45,499 bases of DNA, from the NCBI GenBank assembly GCA_026707285.1, contig JAPOXD010000058.1:1-45499 (forward strand), given 5' to 3'. This DNA comes from Chloroflexota bacterium. Lineage in GTDB: Bacteria > Chloroflexota > UBA11872. Positions 8,041-30,198 of this stretch are shown in pieces. The position numbers and the translations under genes were made by a program. Every line of letters begins with the position of its first letter. The first letter of the stretch is position 1. The notes beneath the pieces were generated by a model, which saw only the letters and a program-made list of their open reading frames with translations, was not told the origin of the DNA and searched no databases.

Positions 8041-9626
8041 AGGCCGCCGTCTACAACCGCTGGCTGCATCAGCGCGGCGGCGGCGAGCGCCACGCCGCCA
8101 TGGCGGCCGCCGTATTGGCCCAGCGCTTCGACGACACACGCCTGGTCACGCATCGCGGCATTGCTCGCGAGGACCTGGAATCCGCCCTGAACCTCGATCT
8201 GTCGAACGTCCAGATCGAGGTCATCCCGGCGCTGCCGCCGAACCGCTTCGCCGAGTACACCGCGCAGTTCGACCTCTTCGTGAACGCCTCGTTCATGACC
8301 TCGCAGCCGTCCGCGGCACACCGCAGCCTGATGCTGGTGCTTTTCCCGTCGCCCATCGAGCGCGGGTGGACCGCGCGCCTGCGACGACGGGTCGGGGAGA
8401 TGCTGATTCGGCAGCTGCTCCTGCCGGAGTGGCTGGACGGGTTCTACGACGTGCATCCGCTGGGCCGCGGCTGGTTCAGGTACACCACGGATCGCGCGAT
8501 CGCGCGTCTCCCCTGGCCGCCGGGCCGCACGTCGGCCAACGTCGAGGTCATCGCCGGCAATTTTCGCCGCGACGAGCCGCTTCCGGTCCGGTGCTTCGTT
8601 GACGGCGAGGTGCTCGCTGAGCGCACGTTCGAGCCTCATCCGGGCGAGTTCGAGCGCTGGCCGTTGCGCGTCCATCGCCCGCGTGGGGCGAACGATCCGC
8701 TCGAGCTCACGCTCGAGTCGCCGGTGTTCAACCCCGCCGACACCCTGGACGAGGCGGACAACCGCGAGGTGGGCCTGGCCGTCACCGACGTGCGCGTGCG
8801 CAGCCCGCGCCGGCTGCTCTACGAGCTGCTGTTCCGCCGCCTGCTGCCTGAAGCGGGCATCCGGCTGGAGGGCCTGCCGACCTATGGGTCGCTCGACTTC
8901 CTGGAGTCCTACGATCTTATCGCGCCCATTTCCGAGTTCAGCCGACGGTGGATGCGCCACTACTGGGATCGCGACGGTCCGTTACTTTTCCCACCGGTTG
9001 ACACCTCATGGGCCGCGCCCGGGCGCCGTCGTCACTCTATTCTTGGGGTGGGCCGGTTCTTTCGCGGCACGCACGAGAAGAAGCACCGGGTGATGATCGA
9101 CCAGTTCATTCGCATGCGGCGCGAGGGCCTCGATGGCTGGACCTTGCACCTGGCTGGGCAGCAGAGCGAGCGCGATATCGACCTGGACTACACCCGTGAC
9201 CTCAAGCGCCGCGCCGCGGGGCATCCCATCGAGTTCCATGTCGGCGCCCCGTTCGCCGACCTGCAACGGTTGTACGGTGAAGCGCAGATCTATTGGCACG
9301 CCGCCGGCCATGGGGAGCGCGAGTCGCGCCATCCGGTGAGATTCGAGCACTTCGGCATCACGGCGGTGGAGGCCATGGCGAGCGGCGCGGTTCCGGTGGT
9401 GCTCGACCGAGGGGGGCTGCCTGAAATCATCACCCACGGCGTGGACGGATTTCGCTGGGCGACGACTCGCGAGCTGCGTGACCACACATGGCGGCTCGTG
9501 CATGACGCCGAACTGCGCCGCCGCATGTCCGAGGCCGCACAGGCCGCGAGCCAGCGATTCAATGTCGCCGCCTTCGCTCGGCGCTTACACGGGCTAGTCG
9601 ATGAGCTTGGGTTTCCCGCCGCGTAG
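8037..9626 (+). CDS. GT4 family glycosyltransferase with an inserted beta-sandwich module
   Basis: Starting at the GTG in the GTGA overlap gives 529 residues beginning with the typical GT4 strand MKAAVYNRWLHQRGGGERHA. The C-terminal GT-B domain has GVGRFF (338-342) and the EX7E motif at Glu437 and Glu445 followed by AMASGAVPVV. Normal GT4 enzymes have 350-420 residues; the excess is a module at about 131-257. That module carries WFRYTTDRAIARLPW, then a predicted beta strand series ending EVGLAVTDVRVRSP. It aligns by eye with the C-terminal module of the Wzt-like ATPase (RWTTDRAVAF through LGLAVRTISV). The module probably binds carbohydrate. Frame continuity upstream of 8037 overlaps the GT2 gene and is not used. 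Confidence 0.88.
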   Translation: MKAAVYNRWLHQRGGGERHAAMAAAVLAQRFDDTRLVTHRGIAREDLESALNLDLSNVQIEVIPALPPNRFAEYTAQFDLFVNASFMTSQPSAAHRSLMLVLFPSPIERGWTARLRRRVGEMLIRQLLLPEWLDGFYDVHPLGRGWFRYTTDRAIARLPWPPGRTSANVEVIAGNFRRDEPLPVRCFVDGEVLAERTFEPHPGEFERWPLRVHRPRGANDPLELTLESPVFNPADTLDEADNREVGLAVTDVRVRSPRRLLYELLFRRLLPEAGIRLEGLPTYGSLDFLESYDLIAPISEFSRRWMRHYWDRDGPLLFPPVDTSWAAPGRRRHSILGVGRFFRGTHEKKHRVMIDQFIRMRREGLDGWTLHLAGQQSERDIDLDYTRDLKRRAAGHPIEFHVGAPFADLQRLYGEAQIYWHAAGHGERESRHPVRFEHFGITAVEAMASGAVPVVLDRGGLPEIITHGVDGFRWATTRELRDHTWRLVHDAELRRRMSEAAQAASQRFNVAAFARRLHGLVDELGFPAA

Positions 9627-9632
9627 CGAGCG

Positions 9633-11912
9633 ATGCGCGCCACGTTTCGGTTCGGCGCGCAACTGATGCGGCTGCACATGCCGGGTTGGATCGTGCAGCG
9701 TCCGGCGCTGGTGCTGTTTCTCCTTGCGCTGACGGTCTATCTGCTCACCGCCGGCGTGAGTCGCAACGGCGTCGGCTACAGCGCCGACGGGACGTTCGCC
9801 TTCGAGATGGCCAAGAGCGTGGTGGTGGACCCAAATCAGAAGTATCTGCGGGAGCACGGCGGCAATTTCTCACGCTGGGGCGTGGGCTTGCCGCTTGCCC
9901 TGATCCCGGTGGTTGCCGCCGCCGAGCCGTTCGCGCAAATCGCGCCGCAGCGTGATCGGCTCCCGATCCATGACGGCGAGCACGAAATACTGTTAGTGAA
10001 CTACGCACCGCTCGGCGGCATGCCACAGCCCAAGAGCACCAGGGTCCTCGACCTTGGCCTCGATCCGGGGCGCTACGACCGGTTGTCGCTGCTCACCCAC
10101 GCCGGCCTGAGCGCCCACTTTGCCCAGGGCCTTCAGGTGGCCAGCCTCATCCTCACCGCCACCGACGGGACCGAGATCGCGCGGCCGATTCGCGTGGGCA
10201 TCGAGACCGCGGAGTGGGCCTATGACCGCGGCGACGTCCAAGCCCGGATTCAACATGCGCGTCCCCGGCCGGCCGGACGCCAAATCGGCAACGCGCGGGC
10301 GTACTACTACCTGGCAACCTGGAACCTTGCGGATCCCATACACCTGGAGTCCGCCCGACTGGAGTACCTGCAGCCGGACGGCAACCTCTACGTGGACGGA
10401 GTGGCCGCACGGCTGGTTGACGGCACCTGGGTTGACGGTCCGGGCATCGGCCGGCTGTGGTCCGAGCGGCAGACGGTCGACTTCTTCCGACGCATTTGGG
10501 TGCCGCTGGTCAATGCGTTGATCACCGCCTTCGGCGCCGTTGTCGTGTTTCGCATCGTGCGGCGCCTGGGCTACGGCGTGGACATCGCCCTGGCCATCGG
10601 CCTCGTCTATGCGCTCGGCACGATGGCCTGGCCCTACGCGGTCGTCGACTTCGCGGAACCGTTGGTGACCCTGCTGGTGCTCGTGTGCGTCTGGCTGCTC
10701 TTGATCTACAACCAGACGCAGCTGCGACGGTATCTGTTGCTCGCGGGGACGGTGGCGCTGGCCGCGGCCGTGACCAAATACGTCACCGTGATCGTCATGC
10801 CGCTGCTCGTGGCGGCGATATTCCTGAGCCACAAGCGCGGACGCACCTGGCGTCAGGCGGGGCGCGAGGGCTTCATGCCGGCGCTCGCGTTTGCCGCGCC
10901 CATCATCGCGGTCGTGCCCGTGGGCCTGGTGGCGGCCGCCTTCCTGTTCGACGTGCGGCTGCTCTACGTCCACGAGCTGTGGGGCGGCATCAGCCGCGGC
11001 TGGCTGGGCCTGCCGATCGAGCTCGGGGTGCACGGGCTGATTTCAAGCTGGGGCAAGGGCCTGCTCTGGTACAACCCGGTGCTCCTGGTGGCGATTCCCG
11101 CGATTCCCTGGTTCATCCGGCGCCACGGATGGCACGCGTTCATTTTCGTCGCCATCCCCATCGGCTACTTGCTGCTCTACAGCAAGAAAGAGGTCTGGTA
11201 CGGGGGCAACGCCTGGGGCCCGCGCTATCTCGTGCCCATCGTGCCGCTACTCGTCATCATGGCCGCGCCGCTGATCGAGTGGCTGGCCCGCAGAGGACGC
11301 CGCGCGCTGCCGCGGGCGGCCTTTGCCGTCGTGCTCCTGGCCAGCCTGGGTGTGCAGCTGATGGGCGTGAGCAAGGACTTCGGCTCCTACCTCGACCTCT
11401 ATCAGCAGCAGGTGGTGGGGGAACTTCCGGAAGACGGCGCGGTGTACGGCGGGGCGGCGTATCAGCCCTGGTCGGCCAAGCAGCCGGAGGGCGACTTCGT
11501 GGCCGTGCTCTACGCCCACCAGTTTTCCCCGCTCCTGGCGCATGCCTGGCTCCTGCGCGCCGACGCCACGAACCTCTTGGCGCCGGATCGGACCGATCTG
11601 CTCGACGACGCCCTGGCGCGCTCACCCTGGTCCCGCTTCGGGATCGACGTGCGTCCGCCGCATCCCGAAAACGGCCTAGGCCTCGACTTCTGGTCGACCA
11701 CGCTGATCGAGTACTACCTGGCCTACCCGGTGGTCCTGGCGCTGGCGGCCCTGGTCCTCGTGGCGCTGCAAGTGATCTCCGTCGGCGCGCTCGCCGCGGC
11801 GACCCACCAACTCTGGCCAAACGGGCCCCATGCCGTACGCTGGCGGCTCGCCGTCGTTGGCGCTTATGGAGCCGTGCTCCTCGCCTTTGACACGCTCCAC
11901 TTCATGCTCTAG
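9633..11912 (+). CDS. Polytopic membrane protein, glycosyltransferase-like, with a large soluble insertion
   Basis: The 759-residue protein has a hydrophobic segment at about 24-41, a second near 84-98, then a soluble stretch from about 103 to 285, followed by a long series of membrane segments. The early ADGTFAFEMAKSV segment and the overall layout resemble GT-C or dolichyl-phosphate-mannose mannosyltransferase-like proteins, which use lipid-linked sugars outside the membrane. The insertion includes VLDLGLDPGRYDRLSLLTHAG and GIETAEWAYDRGDV, suggesting a beta-sandwich on the outer face. A conventional GT-C catalytic Asp or Glu pair could not be placed with confidence; D52 is a candidate. The gene starts 6 bases after the GT4 stop. 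The enzymatic role is inferred only from fold and context. Confidence 0.7.
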   Translation: MRATFRFGAQLMRLHMPGWIVQRPALVLFLLALTVYLLTAGVSRNGVGYSADGTFAFEMAKSVVVDPNQKYLREHGGNFSRWGVGLPLALIPVVAAAEPFAQIAPQRDRLPIHDGEHEILLVNYAPLGGMPQPKSTRVLDLGLDPGRYDRLSLLTHAGLSAHFAQGLQVASLILTATDGTEIARPIRVGIETAEWAYDRGDVQARIQHARPRPAGRQIGNARAYYYLATWNLADPIHLESARLEYLQPDGNLYVDGVAARLVDGTWVDGPGIGRLWSERQTVDFFRRIWVPLVNALITAFGAVVVFRIVRRLGYGVDIALAIGLVYALGTMAWPYAVVDFAEPLVTLLVLVCVWLLLIYNQTQLRRYLLLAGTVALAAAVTKYVTVIVMPLLVAAIFLSHKRGRTWRQAGREGFMPALAFAAPIIAVVPVGLVAAAFLFDVRLLYVHELWGGISRGWLGLPIELGVHGLISSWGKGLLWYNPVLLVAIPAIPWFIRRHGWHAFIFVAIPIGYLLLYSKKEVWYGGNAWGPRYLVPIVPLLVIMAAPLIEWLARRGRRALPRAAFAVVLLASLGVQLMGVSKDFGSYLDLYQQQVVGELPEDGAVYGGAAYQPWSAKQPEGDFVAVLYAHQFSPLLAHAWLLRADATNLLAPDRTDLLDDALARSPWSRFGIDVRPPHPENGLGLDFWSTTLIEYYLAYPVVLALAALVLVALQVISVGALAAATHQLWPNGPHAVRWRLAVVGAYGAVLLAFDTLHFML

Positions 11913-11932
11913 CGTCGAATCGAGGCTACGTG

Positions 11933-12154
11933 ATGTCCGACTCCTCCAACGCCGACCTGATCCCCGCGGATTTTCTCGCCATCCTGCGCTGCGTGAACGA
12001 CGCGCACCCGCGCGATGACGGGGTGTTGCGCATTGTCGGCGAGACGCTCGAGTGCACCGTGTGCGGCTACGCCTACAAGGTCGAGGACGGCATCCCCAAT
12101 ATGCTCTGGGACGAAGCGATTCCGCCGTCCGAATCAACCCCGGCGAGCCCGTGA
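11933..12154 (+). CDS. Small Trm112/YcaR-like zinc-ribbon protein
   Basis: This 73-residue protein resembles Trm112p-like/UPF0434 proteins: a first knuckle ILRC near Cys20, a second knuckle CTVCG (Cys41, Cys44) and the terminal signature YKVEDGIPNML. Family members usually have four cysteines; here the second cysteine of the first knuckle is missing, so three cysteines and perhaps His25 remain. Trm112-type proteins act as small partners of methyltransferases and other enzymes; that role here is inference. The start may be ATG 11933 or the adjacent GTG 11930. Its TGA overlaps the GTG of the radical SAM gene, so the two are translationally coupled and may work together. Confidence 0.75.
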   Translation: MSDSSNADLIPADFLAILRCVNDAHPRDDGVLRIVGETLECTVCGYAYKVEDGIPNMLWDEAIPPSESTPASP

Positions 12155-13239
12155 ACTCGGTCACCCAGGCCAAGGACCTCGTCCTCAAGTTCCGCCGCCA
12201 CAAGGCGGTGGCGCACCCGGGCCTGGCGCGCTTCGCCTACCACTGGATGCGCGGCACCAGCGAGCTGCCCTATGGCCCGCTGAAGATGCACGTGGAGCCC
12301 ACCAGCTTCTGCAATCTGCGCTGCCCCATGTGCCCGCAGAGCGTCGGGGCCAACGCGACAAACGGGTTTATGGAGATGGACCTGTTCAACAAGATCATCG
12401 ACGAGGCCCGCCACTTCACCCGCGAGATCAACCTGTTCTTCCGCGGCGAGTCCCTGATGCACAAGGGCATCTACGAGATGATCGAGATCTGCGAGCGCGC
12501 CGGGATCGCCGCCCACATCAACACCAACGCCACGCTGTGGCGCGACGACGCGATCGCCAATCTGCTGGAAGCCCGACCCTCCAAGGTGACCATCAGCTTC
12601 GATTCCGGCGAACCCGAGACTTACGAGGCAATGCGCAAGGGCGCCACATTCGATCGCGTGCTGGAGCGCGTCTTGCGGTTTCTCGAAGCCCGCAAGCGGC
12701 TTCCCGGCCCGAAGCCCTACGTCGTCATGCAAGTGATCCAGCTCTGGGAGAAGTCGATGGGCGTCGGCGCGCGTCCGGTGATTCCGGCGCACTTCACGAA
12801 TCGCTTCGCCGGCTTGCCGGTCGACGAGTGGGACACCTTCTGGGCTCACGGCTGGGCGGGCACGCTGACCGATTCCGATTTCTACACGGCGCGCCCCCAC
12901 GGTCCTGTCTACTACCCCTGCAACTGGCTGTGGAAATCCATGGCGGTCTACTGGGATGGGCGCGTGCCATCGTGCTGCGCCGACTTCGCCGAAGAGCAGA
13001 TCATGGGCGACCTCAGCACGCAGTCGATCCAGGAAGTGTGGAACAGCGACGCTTATCGGGCCATCCGCGAGGCGCACACGGGCGGTCGTCTAGCCGACTA
13101 TCCGCTGTGCGCCGGCTGCGACGCCAAGTGGCAGGAAGACACCCCGCTCTGGCGGGCGTTTGCCGGCGCCCGGTCGGTGGCCACCACCGAGCCGCTGCCG
13201 GTGCTGCAAAACGGTCGCACGAACGGCCACGCCGGATAG
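12151..13239 (+). CDS. Radical SAM protein with SPASM-type C-terminus
   Basis: The GTG start in the GTGA overlap gives 362 residues. The radical SAM cluster motif CxxxCxxC is present as CNLRCPMC (Cys54, Cys58, Cys61), so a 4Fe-4S cluster and S-adenosylmethionine radical chemistry are expected. The C-terminal third has Cys257, the CC pair 275-276, then MGDLSTQSIQEVWNSDAYRAIREAH and the CAGC pair (320, 323), typical of SPASM or twitch domains that hold auxiliary iron-sulfur clusters. Related proteins modify peptides or small molecules, and some occur in polysaccharide clusters. No precursor peptide was seen beside it, so sugar or lipid modification is a reasonable guess. It follows the zinc-ribbon gene and precedes a 72-base gap. 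Confidence 0.9.
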   Translation: MNSVTQAKDLVLKFRRHKAVAHPGLARFAYHWMRGTSELPYGPLKMHVEPTSFCNLRCPMCPQSVGANATNGFMEMDLFNKIIDEARHFTREINLFFRGESLMHKGIYEMIEICERAGIAAHINTNATLWRDDAIANLLEARPSKVTISFDSGEPETYEAMRKGATFDRVLERVLRFLEARKRLPGPKPYVVMQVIQLWEKSMGVGARPVIPAHFTNRFAGLPVDEWDTFWAHGWAGTLTDSDFYTARPHGPVYYPCNWLWKSMAVYWDGRVPSCCADFAEEQIMGDLSTQSIQEVWNSDAYRAIREAHTGGRLADYPLCAGCDAKWQEDTPLWRAFAGARSVATTEPLPVLQNGRTNGHAG

Positions 13240-13275
13240 CGGTTCCCGAGGGCGGGAGACCTTGGGCTCGCCCGG

Positions 13276-13304
13276 TTGTGACGCCGTACGGTCGGTGCTA
13301 GCGT
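13276..13304 (+). promoter_or_regulatory. Candidate internal promoter in the polysaccharide train
   Basis: The 72-base gap 13240-13311 is the largest in the train. It holds TTGTGA (13276-13281), a 17-base spacer and TAGCGT (13299-13304) with a TG two bases upstream, an extended -10 form. Transcription would begin almost at the ATG at 13312, giving a near-leaderless message. A weak GC-rich hairpin lies just before it (arms near 13250-13254 and 13269-13273). Both box matches are modest, so this is speculative. Confidence 0.22.
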
Positions 13305-13311
13305 CGCGAGC

Positions 13312-14484
13312 ATGCGTCTAACGCTGGTGTCGAACATCTTTCCGCCCGCCGTCGGCGGCCCCGCCACGCACGTGTATCACCTGGCCGAGTCGCTGCATCA
13401 GCGGGGCCACGCCGTGCGGGTGATCGCCGGCACCGACGATCCGGAGGGCGCGGTCAAGGTTCCCTATCCCCTGGTGCGCGTGTCGTGGAGCATGCCGGTG
13501 CCGATCCGCTACCTGCGAGTCATGTGGCACACCTGGCGCGCAGCCTTGCAATCCGACGCGGTGTACATCAACGGCATTGAGCTTCCCGCCAGCCTCGGGG
13601 CGCTGCTGGCCGGCCGCCCGCGCGTGCTCAAGGTCGTGGGCGACTGGGCGTGGGAGTCGGCGATCCGCCGGGGGCTGACGACGCTGGGCATCGAGCCGTT
13701 TCAGACTGCCGCGCATGGCCTCAAGACCCGGTTGTTTCGCGCGATCCAGCGCTTCTATTGCCGCCTGGCCAGCGTGGTCGTCGTCCCCAGCGCCTACGTC
13801 GGTTCCCTGGTCGAGGGGTGGGGCGTCGATGCGGGCAAGACCCAGGTGATCCAGAACGCGCTCACCAGCACGCCGCGTCCCGACGAGGAGCCGGAGGCCG
13901 TGCGTCACGGCCTGGGGCTGCGCGCCCCCGTGGTCTGCAACGTCTCGCGGCTCTATGCCTGGAAGCACGTCGACGCGCTGATTCGCATGGTGCCGCGGTT
14001 CGACCACGGCGCCACCCTGCTCATCGTCGGCGGCGGACCGGAGCAGTCCCGCCTGGAGCAGCTGGCGCGGGAGGTTGGGGTCGCCGAGCGGGTGGTCTTC
14101 ACCGGCGACGTGTCCCATGATCGCGTGGCGACCTACCTGCGGGCGTCCCAGATATGCGTGCTCAACACGCAATACGAGGGCCTTTCGCACACGCTGGTGG
14201 AGGCCCGCCACGTGGGAACGCCGATCGTGACGACCGACGTTGGGGGCAACCGCGAAATCCTGCGCCACGAGCACTCGGCGGTGCTGGTGCCGTTCGGCGA
14301 TGAGGACGCCTTCGTGCGCGCCGTGAATCACCTGCTCGCCGACCCGGCCTACGGTGCGCGGTTGGCCGGCGCCGCGCGGACCGGGCTGGAGCACTTTCGC
14401 TGGGACCGGTTGGTGGACCAAACGCTCGAGGTGCTGCGCGACGCCATCGACCGCCGGCCGGGAGCCGCCCGCGCCGTCGCATGA
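13312..14484 (+). CDS. GT4 family glycosyltransferase
   Basis: The 390-residue protein is a complete GT-B fold enzyme transferring a nucleotide-activated sugar, probably to a growing lipid-linked glycan on the cytoplasmic side. The N-terminal domain begins RLTLVSNIFPPAVGGPATHV, where the glycine-rich loop contacts the donor. The C-terminal domain has NVSRLYAWKHVD, a LLIVGGGPE strand-turn and the EX7E motif Glu289/Glu297 followed by GTPIVTTDVGGNREI. The ATG at 13312 follows the only sizeable gap in the train and lacks a strong ribosome-binding site. Its stop overlaps the next ATG by 4 bases. Sugar specificity cannot be read from the sequence. Confidence 0.92.
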   Translation: MRLTLVSNIFPPAVGGPATHVYHLAESLHQRGHAVRVIAGTDDPEGAVKVPYPLVRVSWSMPVPIRYLRVMWHTWRAALQSDAVYINGIELPASLGALLAGRPRVLKVVGDWAWESAIRRGLTTLGIEPFQTAAHGLKTRLFRAIQRFYCRLASVVVVPSAYVGSLVEGWGVDAGKTQVIQNALTSTPRPDEEPEAVRHGLGLRAPVVCNVSRLYAWKHVDALIRMVPRFDHGATLLIVGGGPEQSRLEQLAREVGVAERVVFTGDVSHDRVATYLRASQICVLNTQYEGLSHTLVEARHVGTPIVTTDVGGNREILRHEHSAVLVPFGDEDAFVRAVNHLLADPAYGARLAGAARTGLEHFRWDRLVDQTLEVLRDAIDRRPGAARAVA

Positions 14485-15611
14485 AACCCAGCCTGCTGAT
14501 GCTCAGCGGCGATCGCGACGTAGCGGCGGGGCGGCGAGGTCCGTTCTACTACACGCTGGAAGGACTGTCGCGGGAGTTCGACCGCATTGACGTGTTGACG
14601 CCGAACGTTCGCCAGGCCCAACCGCGCACGGTCCATCGCGGCGTGCACGTCCATCCGTCGCCGGGCAGGCGGCTCTGGCACGTGCGCTGGCTGGTCCGCC
14701 GAGCGCGCGCCCTGGCCGCCGAGCGGCGCTACCACCTGATCGTGAGCCACGACTACGGCATCTTTTCGAACGGCATCGCCGCCGCGCGTCTCAGCGGGCG
14801 GATTGGCGCGCCGTACGTCAGCGAAATCCACCACGTCCCGGCGCATCCGCGGCGCGCGCAGTGGTGGGAGTCCGCGGCCAAGCTCGGATATCGGGCCTAC
14901 CTCCGATTCGCGGCCGCGCGCGCCCGCGCCATCCGCGTGGTCAACCGGCAAGAGGTGCCCGAGTTGCTGCGACGGTGGGGCGTGCCGGCAGAGAAGATCC
15001 TGGTGCTGCCGTCGGCGCACGTCGATCGAGAGGTGTTTCGTCCGGGCGATCACTCTAGGCCCTACGCGCTGGGCTTCGTAGGGCGCCTGGTCGCCAACAA
15101 GGGCCTGGACCACCTGGTCGAGATCTTCGCGACCGTGGCGGCCGACGCCCCCAATTCGCGATTTCTTGTCGTCGGCGACGGTCCCGAGGCCAACGCCGTG
15201 CAGCGCCGGCTTTCCGCGGCGGGCATCGAGGATCGGGTCGACCGCATCGCCTGGGTTGACGGTCCGGACGACCTGGCGGCGCTCTACCGGCAGATGGAAG
15301 CCCTGGCATGCACGTCGCGGAGCGAGGGCGGACCTCGTGTGTGCCTGGAGGCCATGGCCTGCGGCACGCCGGTGTTCAGCACGCCCGTGGGCCTGATGCC
15401 GGAGATCATCGAGCAGGGCGTGAACGGCTGGCTCTTGCCGTGGAATGCGAAGGCCGGCGGCGACCTGGTCTCGCAGGTGCGCCGCGCACGCGGCGCCCTG
15501 GCCGGCGCCGGTGCGGCGGCGCGGCGGGCAACCGAGCCCTTTACCCGCGAGCGGATCCTCAGCGCCTACGCCCGGGCCTATCGTGACCTGGCGGCGGAGT
15601 CGCTGCCGTGA
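14481..15611 (+). CDS. GT4 family glycosyltransferase
   Basis: The 376-residue GT-B enzyme starts at the ATG of an ATGA overlap. Motifs include LLMLSGDRDVAAGRRGPFYY at the N-terminus, VSEIHHVP in the acceptor domain, FVGRLVANKGLDHLVEIF (199-216), VVGDGPE and EX7E Glu282/Glu290 with AMACGTPVFSTPVG. Length and motif order are standard for the family. It ends in a GTGA overlap with the next glycosyltransferase, so three consecutive GT4 genes are translated in a coupled chain. Donor and acceptor are unknown. Confidence 0.92.
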   Translation: MKPSLLMLSGDRDVAAGRRGPFYYTLEGLSREFDRIDVLTPNVRQAQPRTVHRGVHVHPSPGRRLWHVRWLVRRARALAAERRYHLIVSHDYGIFSNGIAAARLSGRIGAPYVSEIHHVPAHPRRAQWWESAAKLGYRAYLRFAAARARAIRVVNRQEVPELLRRWGVPAEKILVLPSAHVDREVFRPGDHSRPYALGFVGRLVANKGLDHLVEIFATVAADAPNSRFLVVGDGPEANAVQRRLSAAGIEDRVDRIAWVDGPDDLAALYRQMEALACTSRSEGGPRVCLEAMACGTPVFSTPVGLMPEIIEQGVNGWLLPWNAKAGGDLVSQVRRARGALAGAGAAARRATEPFTRERILSAYARAYRDLAAESLP

Positions 15612-26021: not shown

Positions 26022-27073
26022 TCGGGCCCGAATGGGACACGGGCCTCTGGGCCGAATACTGCGGCGCGGGGCTAGAGGCCGGCGGCCACGAGGTGGCCGC
26101 GCTGCTCTACGGCCGCGACCTGGCGCGTCCGGTGGGCCTCTGGGGCCGCGTGCGGCGTCGGCTGGCGGGGCCGCATCGATTTCACATCGGCCGGGTGCTC
26201 GAGGCCATGCGCCGCGACAACCTTCGCGTGCTGGATGCCGCCGTGCGCCACCGACCCGATCTCACCGTCGTCCTGAAGGGCGAGGTGCTGCTGCCGGAAA
26301 CCGTCGAGCGCCTGCGGGACCTCACGTCGGGACCCGTCGTGCAGTGGTGTGGGGACAATCCCTCATGGTTTCCCCACATCATGGCCGCGGCCCATCTCTA
26401 CGACCGCTTTTTCCTCGCCGAGCCGTCCTATGCGACCGACCTCGCGCGGCTCGGAGTGGGGGCCGAATTCATGACCCATGCCGCCGATCCCGACACCTGG
26501 GGACCGGCGCCCGATGAAGCCCAAGATCCGCCGGAGTGGGACGTGGTGTTCGTGGGCGACGCGCGGCACAACATGGGGCATTTGCCGTCCACGCGCCTGC
26601 GCGTGGACCTGGTCGAAGTCGCCGCCCGCAGCGGCCTGCGCGTGGCGGTTTGGGGCCGCGGGTGGGAGAAGCTCGACGCCGACTCACCGGCGCGGCAACG
26701 ACACGAAGGGCTGACGCTGTTGCCCGCCGCGGCCGTGGCGCGAACCTATCGCCGCGCCAAGATCGCGCTCAACGCGCACCACGCCCAAATGCGCGAGGGC
26801 GTGAACATGCGCACGTTCGAAATTTCGGCTGCAGGCGCCTTCCAGCTCTGCGACGCCAAGGCGCGGCTCGGCGAGCTGCTCGAGATAGGAGACGAAGTCG
26901 CCGTCTACGAGGGAGTCGACGACCTGGCTGACCTGCTGCACCGCTACGCGGCCGACGACGCGGCCCGGGCGCGGATCGCGGAGGCCGGCCGCCGGCGCGT
27001 GCTGCGCGACCACACCTACACCGCGCGCATGGCCCAACTCGTCGCGCGATCGCATGGCGAACCGGCCGCCTAG
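26006..27073 (+). CDS. CgeB-like glycosyltransferase
   Basis: From ATG 26006 the protein has 355 residues and begins MRVLLIGPEWDTGLWAEYCG. It resembles CgeB/SpsB-like glycosyltransferases (GT-B fold): VVQWCGDNPSWFPHI in the N-domain, then VVFVGDARHNMGHLPSTRL at the start of the C-domain and INxR-type ending NMRTFEISAAGAFQLCD, which replaces the EX7E region in this group. These enzymes glycosylate spore crust, maturation proteins or surface polymers in other bacteria. The gene overlaps its upstream neighbour by 16 bases and its downstream neighbour by 20, unless the methyltransferase starts at GTG 27075. Confidence 0.86.
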   Translation: MRVLLIGPEWDTGLWAEYCGAGLEAGGHEVAALLYGRDLARPVGLWGRVRRRLAGPHRFHIGRVLEAMRRDNLRVLDAAVRHRPDLTVVLKGEVLLPETVERLRDLTSGPVVQWCGDNPSWFPHIMAAAHLYDRFFLAEPSYATDLARLGVGAEFMTHAADPDTWGPAPDEAQDPPEWDVVFVGDARHNMGHLPSTRLRVDLVEVAARSGLRVAVWGRGWEKLDADSPARQRHEGLTLLPAAAVARTYRRAKIALNAHHAQMREGVNMRTFEISAAGAFQLCDAKARLGELLEIGDEVAVYEGVDDLADLLHRYAADDAARARIAEAGRRRVLRDHTYTARMAQLVARSHGEPAA

Positions 27074-27902
27074 CGTGCCCGCCGGCTCAGCGTCGCCGCT
27101 GCCCACGGCCCTCGCGGGACGCTCCGACCGCGAGCTCTTGCGGCTGGCGATCGAGGCGCACCTGCATCAGCCGGCAATCGCGCTCTGGCGCGCCACCGAG
27201 TTCGCCATGTTGCGCGAGGTGGCGTTCGGCGCGCCGGTTCTCGATCTGGGCTGCGGCGGAGGCGCCGTCGCCGGAGTGGTGCTTCACGACCACTGGCCGC
27301 GCGACGGCCTCGAATTACTCGCCAGCGAGGCGCGCGCCGCCCGCGACCTGGGCGTCTACCGGGGCGTGATTCGCTCGGACGCGACGCGGGCGCCGCTGGC
27401 CGCGGGCGCCTATGCCGCGGTTTTCAGCCAAAGCGTGCTGGAGCACATTCCGGACGACCGAGCCGCCGTGCGCGAGGCGGCGCGCGCGCTCGCGCCGGGC
27501 GGGCGGCTGGTATTCACCGTGCCGTCGCCGGCATTCGCCGAGCGGATTCGCCGTGGACCCGGCGGTGAGGCCGCCCTGCAAGCAACGAACGACCGGCTGG
27601 GCCACTTCCACTACCGCTCGCTCGATGAGTGGGCCGCGCTGCTGGACGCCTGCGGCCTCGGCATCGTCGACACCGGCGGGCATCTGCCCGCTCGCACGCA
27701 ACACGCCTGGCAGCGCCTGGACGCGCTAATGACGCATCGGCTGGGCCGGCGCCGCATCCTGGATATCTTTCGGGCGCTGCACCGCCGCCGGCTCGTCCCG
27801 CGCCGCGCGTGGATTGCCGCGTGGACCGCGATGCTCTGGCGACCCTTCCGTCGGCCGGTGGACGATCCCGGCGGCTATCTGATCGTGGCCCAGGCGCCCT
27901 AG
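27054..27902 (+). CDS. SAM-dependent class I methyltransferase
   Basis: The 282-residue protein has motif I VLDLGCGGG (62-70), a post-motif acidic region, and the later QSVLEHIPDD and LAPGGRLVFTVPSP segments, all typical of class I S-adenosylmethionine methyltransferases of the Methyltransf_11 kind. Its place among glycosyltransferases suggests O-methylation of a glycan, perhaps to cap the chain, as happens in some Wzm/Wzt systems in which Wzt recognises the cap. That link is inference. The start may be ATG 27054, overlapping the previous gene by 20 bases, or GTG 27075 just after the stop. It ends one base before the last gene of the train. Confidence 0.9.
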   Translation: MANRPPSVPAGSASPLPTALAGRSDRELLRLAIEAHLHQPAIALWRATEFAMLREVAFGAPVLDLGCGGGAVAGVVLHDHWPRDGLELLASEARAARDLGVYRGVIRSDATRAPLAAGAYAAVFSQSVLEHIPDDRAAVREAARALAPGGRLVFTVPSPAFAERIRRGPGGEAALQATNDRLGHFHYRSLDEWAALLDACGLGIVDTGGHLPARTQHAWQRLDALMTHRLGRRRILDIFRALHRRRLVPRRAWIAAWTAMLWRPFRRPVDDPGGYLIVAQAP

Positions 27903-29049: not shown

Positions 29050-30198
29050 TTAGATATCGGCCACCCCACCGTCGGCGTACACGTCGGAGCCGAACTCCAG
29101 CTCGTGCGGCGGGTTCGCCGCGATGAACACTTCATCCAACTCAACCCCAAGCCCCGGCACCTCCGGCAGCGCGAAGTGCCCATCGGCGAACGCCAGCGGT
29201 TCCTGCAGGACGCTTTCGAAGTAGGGCGGCTTGCGTGCATATTCCAGGATCAGGAAATTCGGCGTGGCCGCCGCCAGCTGGATATTCGCCGCCGTCGCCA
29301 CCGGGCCGTTCGGGTTGTGCGGCGCCATGGAGATGTAGTGCGTCTCGGCGTGCGCGGCGATGCGGCGCAGCTCGGAGATGCCGCCCGCGTAGCAGATGTC
29401 GGGCTGGACCACGTGCACGGCGCGCAATTCGATCAGCTCGCGGAAGCCCCAGCGGGTATAGAGCCGCTCGCCGGTCGCGCAGGGCACCTCGGGCACCGCC
29501 GCGGTCACCTGCGCATAGGCCGGGACGTTGTCCGGCGGGATCAGCTCCTCGGCGAATAGCAGATCCTGGTCGCGCACACCGTGCAGGAAGCGGGCGGCCG
29601 CGGCCGGGTGGAGTCGGCCGTGGAAGTCGATCATCAGATCGAGCTCGGGACCCGCCGCGGCCCGGACGGCCGCCACCAATTCCACGGCGGCCTTGGCCAG
29701 GGCAAACTCGTTAAATCCGCCTTCGAGGTGCGGCGGCGCGATCTTGAACGCCGTGAAGCCTTGTCGCTGGGCGTCCAGCACCTGGTCGATTTCCGAGCCT
29801 CCCAAGTCGGCCCGGGCGTACGCGCGGACCCGATCGCGCACCGGCCCGCCGAGCATGCGGTACACGGGCAGCCCGGCGGCCTTGCCCGCGATATCCCACA
29901 GCGCCATGTCGATACCGCTGATCGCGGCGTTGAGAATCGGCCCGCCGCGGAAGAACGGGTGGCGATACATCTGCTGCCACAGGTGCTCGACGCGGGTGGG
30001 GTCCTGCCCGACAAGAAACGTGCCGAACCGCTCCACCACCTCCGCCACGGCCTGGTTCACCTTGAACAGGCTGCACTCGCCGATGCCGTGGATGCCGCTG
30101 TCGGTTTCGATCCGCACGAAGGTCCATACCCGGTTGAGTCGTGCTCCGGGAGCGGCCGGCGCGCCGCAGTGCATCGTCTGAATGTCGGTGATTCGCAT
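29050..30198 (-). CDS. Enolase-superfamily acid-sugar dehydratase (D-galactonate dehydratase-like)
   Basis: The 382-residue protein belongs to the mandelate racemase group of the enolase superfamily and probably dehydrates an aldonic acid in sugar catabolism in the cytoplasm. Metal ligands appear as Asp191 in MIDFHGR, a Glu at 217 or 218 in FAEELIPPDN and Glu244 in ATGERLYT. The base residues His193 and His294 (MAPHNPNGPV) match the DgoD-type arrangement, in which both histidines act in dehydration. Length is normal. The opening MRITDIQTMHCG fixes the start. It lies 50 bases downstream of the LanC-like gene on the same strand. Galactonate itself is not proven; many relatives act on other acid sugars. 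Confidence 0.9.
   Translation of the reverse strand: MRITDIQTMHCGAPAAPGARLNRVWTFVRIETDSGIHGIGECSLFKVNQAVAEVVERFGTFLVGQDPTRVEHLWQQMYRHPFFRGGPILNAAISGIDMALWDIAGKAAGLPVYRMLGGPVRDRVRAYARADLGGSEIDQVLDAQRQGFTAFKIAPPHLEGGFNEFALAKAAVELVAAVRAAAGPELDLMIDFHGRLHPAAAARFLHGVRDQDLLFAEELIPPDNVPAYAQVTAAVPEVPCATGERLYTRWGFRELIELRAVHVVQPDICYAGGISELRRIAAHAETHYISMAPHNPNGPVATAANIQLAAATPNFLILEYARKPPYFESVLQEPLAFADGHFALPEVPGLGVELDEVFIAANPPHELEFGSDVYADGGVADI

Follow-up and report, generated by a model that had tools for sequence, protein, structure and literature searches.

A recurrent gene pair of a Trm112-like protein and a BtrN-like radical SAM enzyme in a Chloroflexota class, and its possible role in the modification of a surface-glycan sugar

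In this study, we found that a Trm112/UPF0434-like small protein and a radical SAM/SPASM-Twitch enzyme are encoded by two overlapping genes in a glycan gene cluster of a Chloroflexota bacterium, and that the two genes lie side by side in most copies of the pair's enzyme gene in the class. The window, that is, the whole stretch of DNA that was analysed, comprises 45,499 nucleotides (contig JAPOXD010000058.1 of assembly GCA_026707285.1). Named relatives that are nearly identical place the window genome in Chloroflexota. Our leading explanation, held tentatively and at slightly less than an even chance, is a functional unit in which a Trm112-type accessory subunit and a Twitch-type radical SAM enzyme would act on a surface-glycan sugar, with the product used by the GT4 glycosyltransferase encoded downstream. 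The domains are known; the partnership is new and testable, and its mechanism is one that we infer. The features of the locus, in positions of the window, are as follows.

9633..11912, + strand: membrane glycosyltransferase-like protein, upstream; weak PMT_2 and DUF2079 matches, both below the cut-offs
11933..12154, + strand: Trm112/UPF0434-like small protein, 73 aa; Cys at residues 20, 41, and 44, with Asp 23 as a possible fourth zinc ligand
12151..12154, + strand: GTGA start/stop overlap, 4 bases common to both ORFs; probable translational coupling
12151..13239, + strand: radical SAM/SPASM-Twitch enzyme, 362 aa
12310..12333, + strand: CX3CX2C motif of the radical SAM cluster (C54, C58, C61), invariant in 44/44 sequences
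12919..13122, + strand: SPASM/Twitch region with Cys residues C257, C275, C320, and C323, all four invariant in 44/44 sequences; aligned to the BtrN C-terminal domain
13312..14484, + strand: GT4 glycosyltransferase, directly downstream of the enzyme

The Trm112-like ORF starts with ATG at 11933 and stops with TGA at 12152-12154, and an in-frame GTG at 11930 is a possible alternative start. The radical SAM ORF starts with GTG at 12151, and its stop ends at 13239. The first-pass annotation had described a small Trm112-like ORF and a radical SAM ORF sharing a GTGA, and its coordinates proved exact. The enzyme scored 69.3 bits against Pfam Radical_SAM PF04055 (cut-off 29.5) and 58.3 bits against Pfam SPASM PF13186 (cut-off 21.5). 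The call for the window copy of the small protein was weak, with 19.5 bits against Pfam Trm112p PF03966 (cut-off 22); among the copies adjoining the enzyme in four relatives, three were above this cut-off (37.1, 29.4, and 24.7 bits) and one was below it (20.5 bits). Both genes of the pair are under purifying selection. Among four genomes of family f1, namely the window genome and three relatives (f1 to f5 are family labels from the search tool), the dN/dS range was 0.06-0.12 in the Trm112-like gene and 0.02-0.07 in the enzyme gene. No natural fusion of the two proteins was found in the in-frame upstream stretches of 12 loci examined. A scan of 9400-14600 returned no sigma-70-like promoter, the consensus being not informative for Chloroflexota.

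The conservation of the pairing was investigated in a class sample of 41 genomes, of which 32 contained the enzyme at E<=1e-30 (33 copies). Adjacency was scored for 32 copies, G012 being left out because its gene is split over two contigs. The Trm112-like gene adjoined the enzyme (within 120 nt) in 27 of the 32 copies; three were without it, and two lay at contig ends. A 4-nt overlap was present in 23 of the 32. All 18 copies in f1 were adjacent, 17 with the 4-nt overlap and G006 with a 70-nt gap. Every copy was likewise adjacent in f2 (4/4), f5 (2/2), and f4 (2/2). The count for f3 was 1/6, with G028 and G032 at contig ends and hence unscorable, and G038, G026, and G024 without an adjacent Trm112 gene. 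The Trm112-like gene also adjoined the enzyme in UBA6077, a named record counted apart. The class enzymes form one clade (tree support 0.996). The first-pass annotation had called for a look at relatives with other neighbours and had allowed that the pair might be rarely adjacent there. These counts run the other way, and the pair was retained both in the exporter/glycosyltransferase cluster of f1 and at the ruvB locus of f4.

In f4, the gene order is reversed: at the ruvB locus, among different neighbours, the Trm112-like gene follows the enzyme after a gap of 43-44 nt. Its product represents a divergent Trm112 type, in which a long insert separates the Cys-containing start from the IPVML end and a single Cys remains. 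These insert-bearing proteins are encoded at L041:5963-6214 and, on the reverse complement, at L042 10266-10517. Chance adjacency was put at about 1 in 1,500, a rough estimate for an f4 genome with approximately 3,000 genes and a single Pfam Trm112 match. Inheritance of a single gene order does not readily account for the type and position of the f4 gene, and it seems that in f4 the same partnership was either arranged independently or replaced. Given the low dN/dS among the four f1 genomes and the recurring adjacency, the pair is more than chance. These results demonstrate a solid genomic link between the Trm112-like gene and the enzyme.

The Trm112-like gene is also found on its own. It is kept without the enzyme in four class genomes, G019 (f2) and G025, G027, and G031 (f4), and therefore its product must also do something else. 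In the three f4 genomes, the gene is still constrained (dN/dS 0.05-0.10), and the flanks of the f4 locus are conserved whether the enzyme is present or absent. Neither gene was found in G003. The Trm112-like protein thus looks like a hub with the enzyme as one client, and not like the servant of the enzyme alone. The same genomes and flanks speak for the strongest of the rival explanations, simple co-expression without contact, in which the Trm112-like gene has a housekeeping or envelope role of its own, the overlap serves co-expression with the enzyme only, and the two proteins form no complex. We consider this a serious possibility, although on balance an unlikely one, because the adjacency is seen in five families and involves two types of Trm112 and both gene orders. 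It is also opposed by a phylum sample of 151 genomes, 85 of them with a Trm112 match: no enzyme of the profile was found within about 1.5 kb on each side of the 30 best Trm112 loci, in a search that was not exhaustive and in which one of the 30 loci was that of G019. Among the named relatives, an adjacent Trm112-like gene was present at 16 of 79 loci, all within the close clade. In 57 distant relatives (identity approximately 28-37%), no Trm112 was found within the available flanks, some of them short; the sole exception was a weak match in L112 at a distance of 5.9 kb.

Trm112-like genes with other neighbours were observed as well. The f3 genomes carry a Trm112-like protein elsewhere; at 5/5 loci taken, one with an N-terminal hydrophobic stretch adjoins a GHMP-type kinase (L133:7490-7885, L134:7133-7543, L135:955-1413, L138:3197-3646, and L141:3131-3529; Pfam-confirmed in L133 only). 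The GHMP-type kinase may be a second partner of Trm112-like proteins, again from sugar metabolism. In G019, a four-Cys Trm112-like gene (L139:6813-7163) is immediately followed by a citrate-type transporter, and purA is close by; this is the place where the f2 relatives have the pair.

The pair in the window is surrounded by genes for an ABC2/Wzt exporter, many GT4s, a GT2, a flippase, and a methyltransferase, and an initiating sugar transferase is encoded on the other strand. The earlier placement of the pair inside a polysaccharide operon agrees with these surroundings. A GT4 gene lies directly 3' of the enzyme in f1, f3, f5, and UBA6077; no glycosyltransferase was found 3' of the enzyme in f2 or f4. 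At 29053-30198 (- strand) of the window, a mandelate racemase/enolase-type enzyme is encoded between two glycan gene blocks.

According to a 2017 review (PMC5372719), Trm112 proteins activate SAM-dependent methyltransferases in eukaryotes, and probably in archaea as well; their function in bacteria is unknown. As the clients described there are methyltransferases, the client of the Trm112-like protein might, as in eukaryotes, be a SAM-dependent methyltransferase, here one encoded in the same cluster. A methyltransferase is encoded at 27054-27902 in the window, and in the class member G034 a 335-aa protein (L140:6022-7029) appears to join an N-terminal Trm112-like zinc ribbon to a putative methyltransferase. 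We regard this explanation as improbable, because the methyltransferase of the cluster is 15 kb from the pair and, of the 16 named loci that carry the pair, only L064 gave a phmmer match to it within the available flanks. As it is not a constant neighbour of the pair, the cluster methyltransferase was rejected as the partner.

We examined the predicted fold of the window Trm112-like protein. Its first PDB matches were UPF0434/Trm112 chains, with Foldseek E values of only 0.05 and up and a model pLDDT of 74. Compared with the [C/D]xx[C/D]...CxxC signature, the putative zinc ligands are C20, D23, C41, and C44 in the window copy, and there are two Cys in the f2 copies and four in the f5 copies. 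Asp 23 is a possible ligand by the [C/D]xx[C/D] part of this signature (PMC5372719). The number of Cys residues varies among the Trm112-like copies, and the tail is unconserved. The window genome contained no second convincing Trm112 match.

The model of the enzyme (pLDDT 88.1) matched BtrN best, with Z 22.5 and an rmsd of 2.5 A over 231 residues. The next matches were DesII (Z 20.3), the peptide enzyme SuiB (Z 19.6), and BlsE (Z 17.7), and SkfB was also matched. Sequence profiles of the enzyme family gave BtrN first (E 6.7e-32), followed by BlsE, SuiB, and others. BtrN was aligned in two stretches, the CX3CX2C motif and the Cys residues of the C-terminal Twitch domain. BtrN, a Twitch-type radical SAM enzyme, dehydrogenates an aminocyclitol in aminoglycoside biosynthesis. 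The substrates of BtrN, DesII, and BlsE are cyclitols or sugars, as the PDB titles also indicate. With BtrN and DesII as the best structural matches of the model, sugar-type chemistry is favoured. Fold alone does not settle the substrate, because DesII, SuiB, SkfB, and others are within a few Z units of BtrN (VIA-align). The BtrN match and the downstream GT4 together favour a sugar substrate, short of proof, and the peptide enzymes are close behind in fold.

Since SPASM enzymes often modify peptides, and the fold matches include SuiB and SkfB, the small protein could instead be the substrate, a RiPP-precursor-like protein encoded just upstream of its maturase. The position and overlap fit this idea, and the Trm112-like ORF is the only small ORF in precursor position at the locus. 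We judge it the least probable of the explanations, as the small protein is a conserved folded Trm112 domain with a variable Cys count and an unconserved tail, and as its gene is retained without the enzyme and lies downstream in f4. The first-pass annotation had left room for a clearly known peptide-modifying family; among the NCBIfam matches listed, no curated peptide-maturase cut-off was passed, and with a folded Trm112 domain as the upstream small ORF, a peptide-maturase identity was set aside as improbable. Maturation of a tungsten aldehyde oxidoreductase (AFOR) or another protein by the enzyme is also very improbable. TIGR04317 was the best NCBIfam match of the enzyme, and 25 of the 32 genomes with the enzyme also had AFOR. 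However, the match reached only 101.7 bits against a cut-off of 380, seven genomes had the enzyme without an AFOR match, and G003 and G040 had AFOR without the enzyme. The distribution of the enzyme does not follow AFOR, no enzyme of its profile was found in the 15 kb examined at the AFOR gene, and the AFOR maturase was rejected. A defence role was rejected as well, because the PADLOC matches were limited to viperin-like ones that cover the radical SAM core alone, which we read as superfamily similarity.

In the functional unit that we favour, the 73-aa protein would be an accessory subunit of the Trm112 type and, as a small hub, would serve more than one client. It would bind the enzyme in a physical complex and stabilise or position this Twitch-type radical SAM protein. 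The enzyme would abstract hydrogen from a carbon of a sugar or cyclitol. The most likely outcome would be a nucleotide- or lipid-linked sugar that is oxidised or otherwise modified, and the downstream-encoded GT4 would then build the modified sugar into the surface glycan. The earlier proposal of a modification module for a sugar, lipid carrier, or small peptide is thus upheld in part: the pairing is conserved and sugar-type chemistry is favoured, but the persistence of Trm112 in the four genomes without the enzyme weighs against it. More broadly, bacterial Trm112-like proteins could be general partners of SAM-using enzymes, one of them here activating a BtrN-like enzyme that makes an unusual sugar for the Chloroflexota surface glycan; we think this rather unlikely, and put it forward as a speculation.

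We found no paper on a Trm112-radical SAM pairing in the open-access literature; papers naming both terms concern, by their titles, tRNA or RNA modification and disease. The class offers a concrete and recurrent candidate client of Trm112, probably coupled to it in translation, that is not a methyltransferase. With these two small genes, the question of bacterial Trm112 function becomes testable. If the proposed unit is correct, candidate radical sugar chemistry would be added to glycan assembly.

Among known systems, BtrN shares with the class enzyme the radical SAM motif and the Cys residues of the C-terminal cluster region. The class enzyme exceeds BtrN in length by about 100 residues, has a helical N-terminal part, and contains a GLPVDEWD..HGWAG stretch that is conserved in the class; the identity is approximately 21%, and the enzyme gene sits in a glycan cluster and not in an antibiotic cluster. 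Owing to this context, we treat the enzyme as BtrN-like and did not file it as BtrN. DesII and BlsE, radical SAM enzymes of sugar nucleotides or nucleosides, resemble it in fold at the Z scores given above, but the identity is only 16-17%, and to our knowledge no Trm112 partner is known for either. The TIGR04317 tungsten oxidoreductase maturase is the best NCBIfam match, but it is far below its cut-off and differs in distribution. The small protein resembles the Trm112/UPF0434 (YcaR) family, PF03966, in its length, fold, and C...C...Y...GIP.ML core. Unlike this family, the window copy falls below the Pfam cut-off, its first CxxC is reduced to CxxD, and it is encoded with a radical SAM enzyme and not with a methyltransferase.
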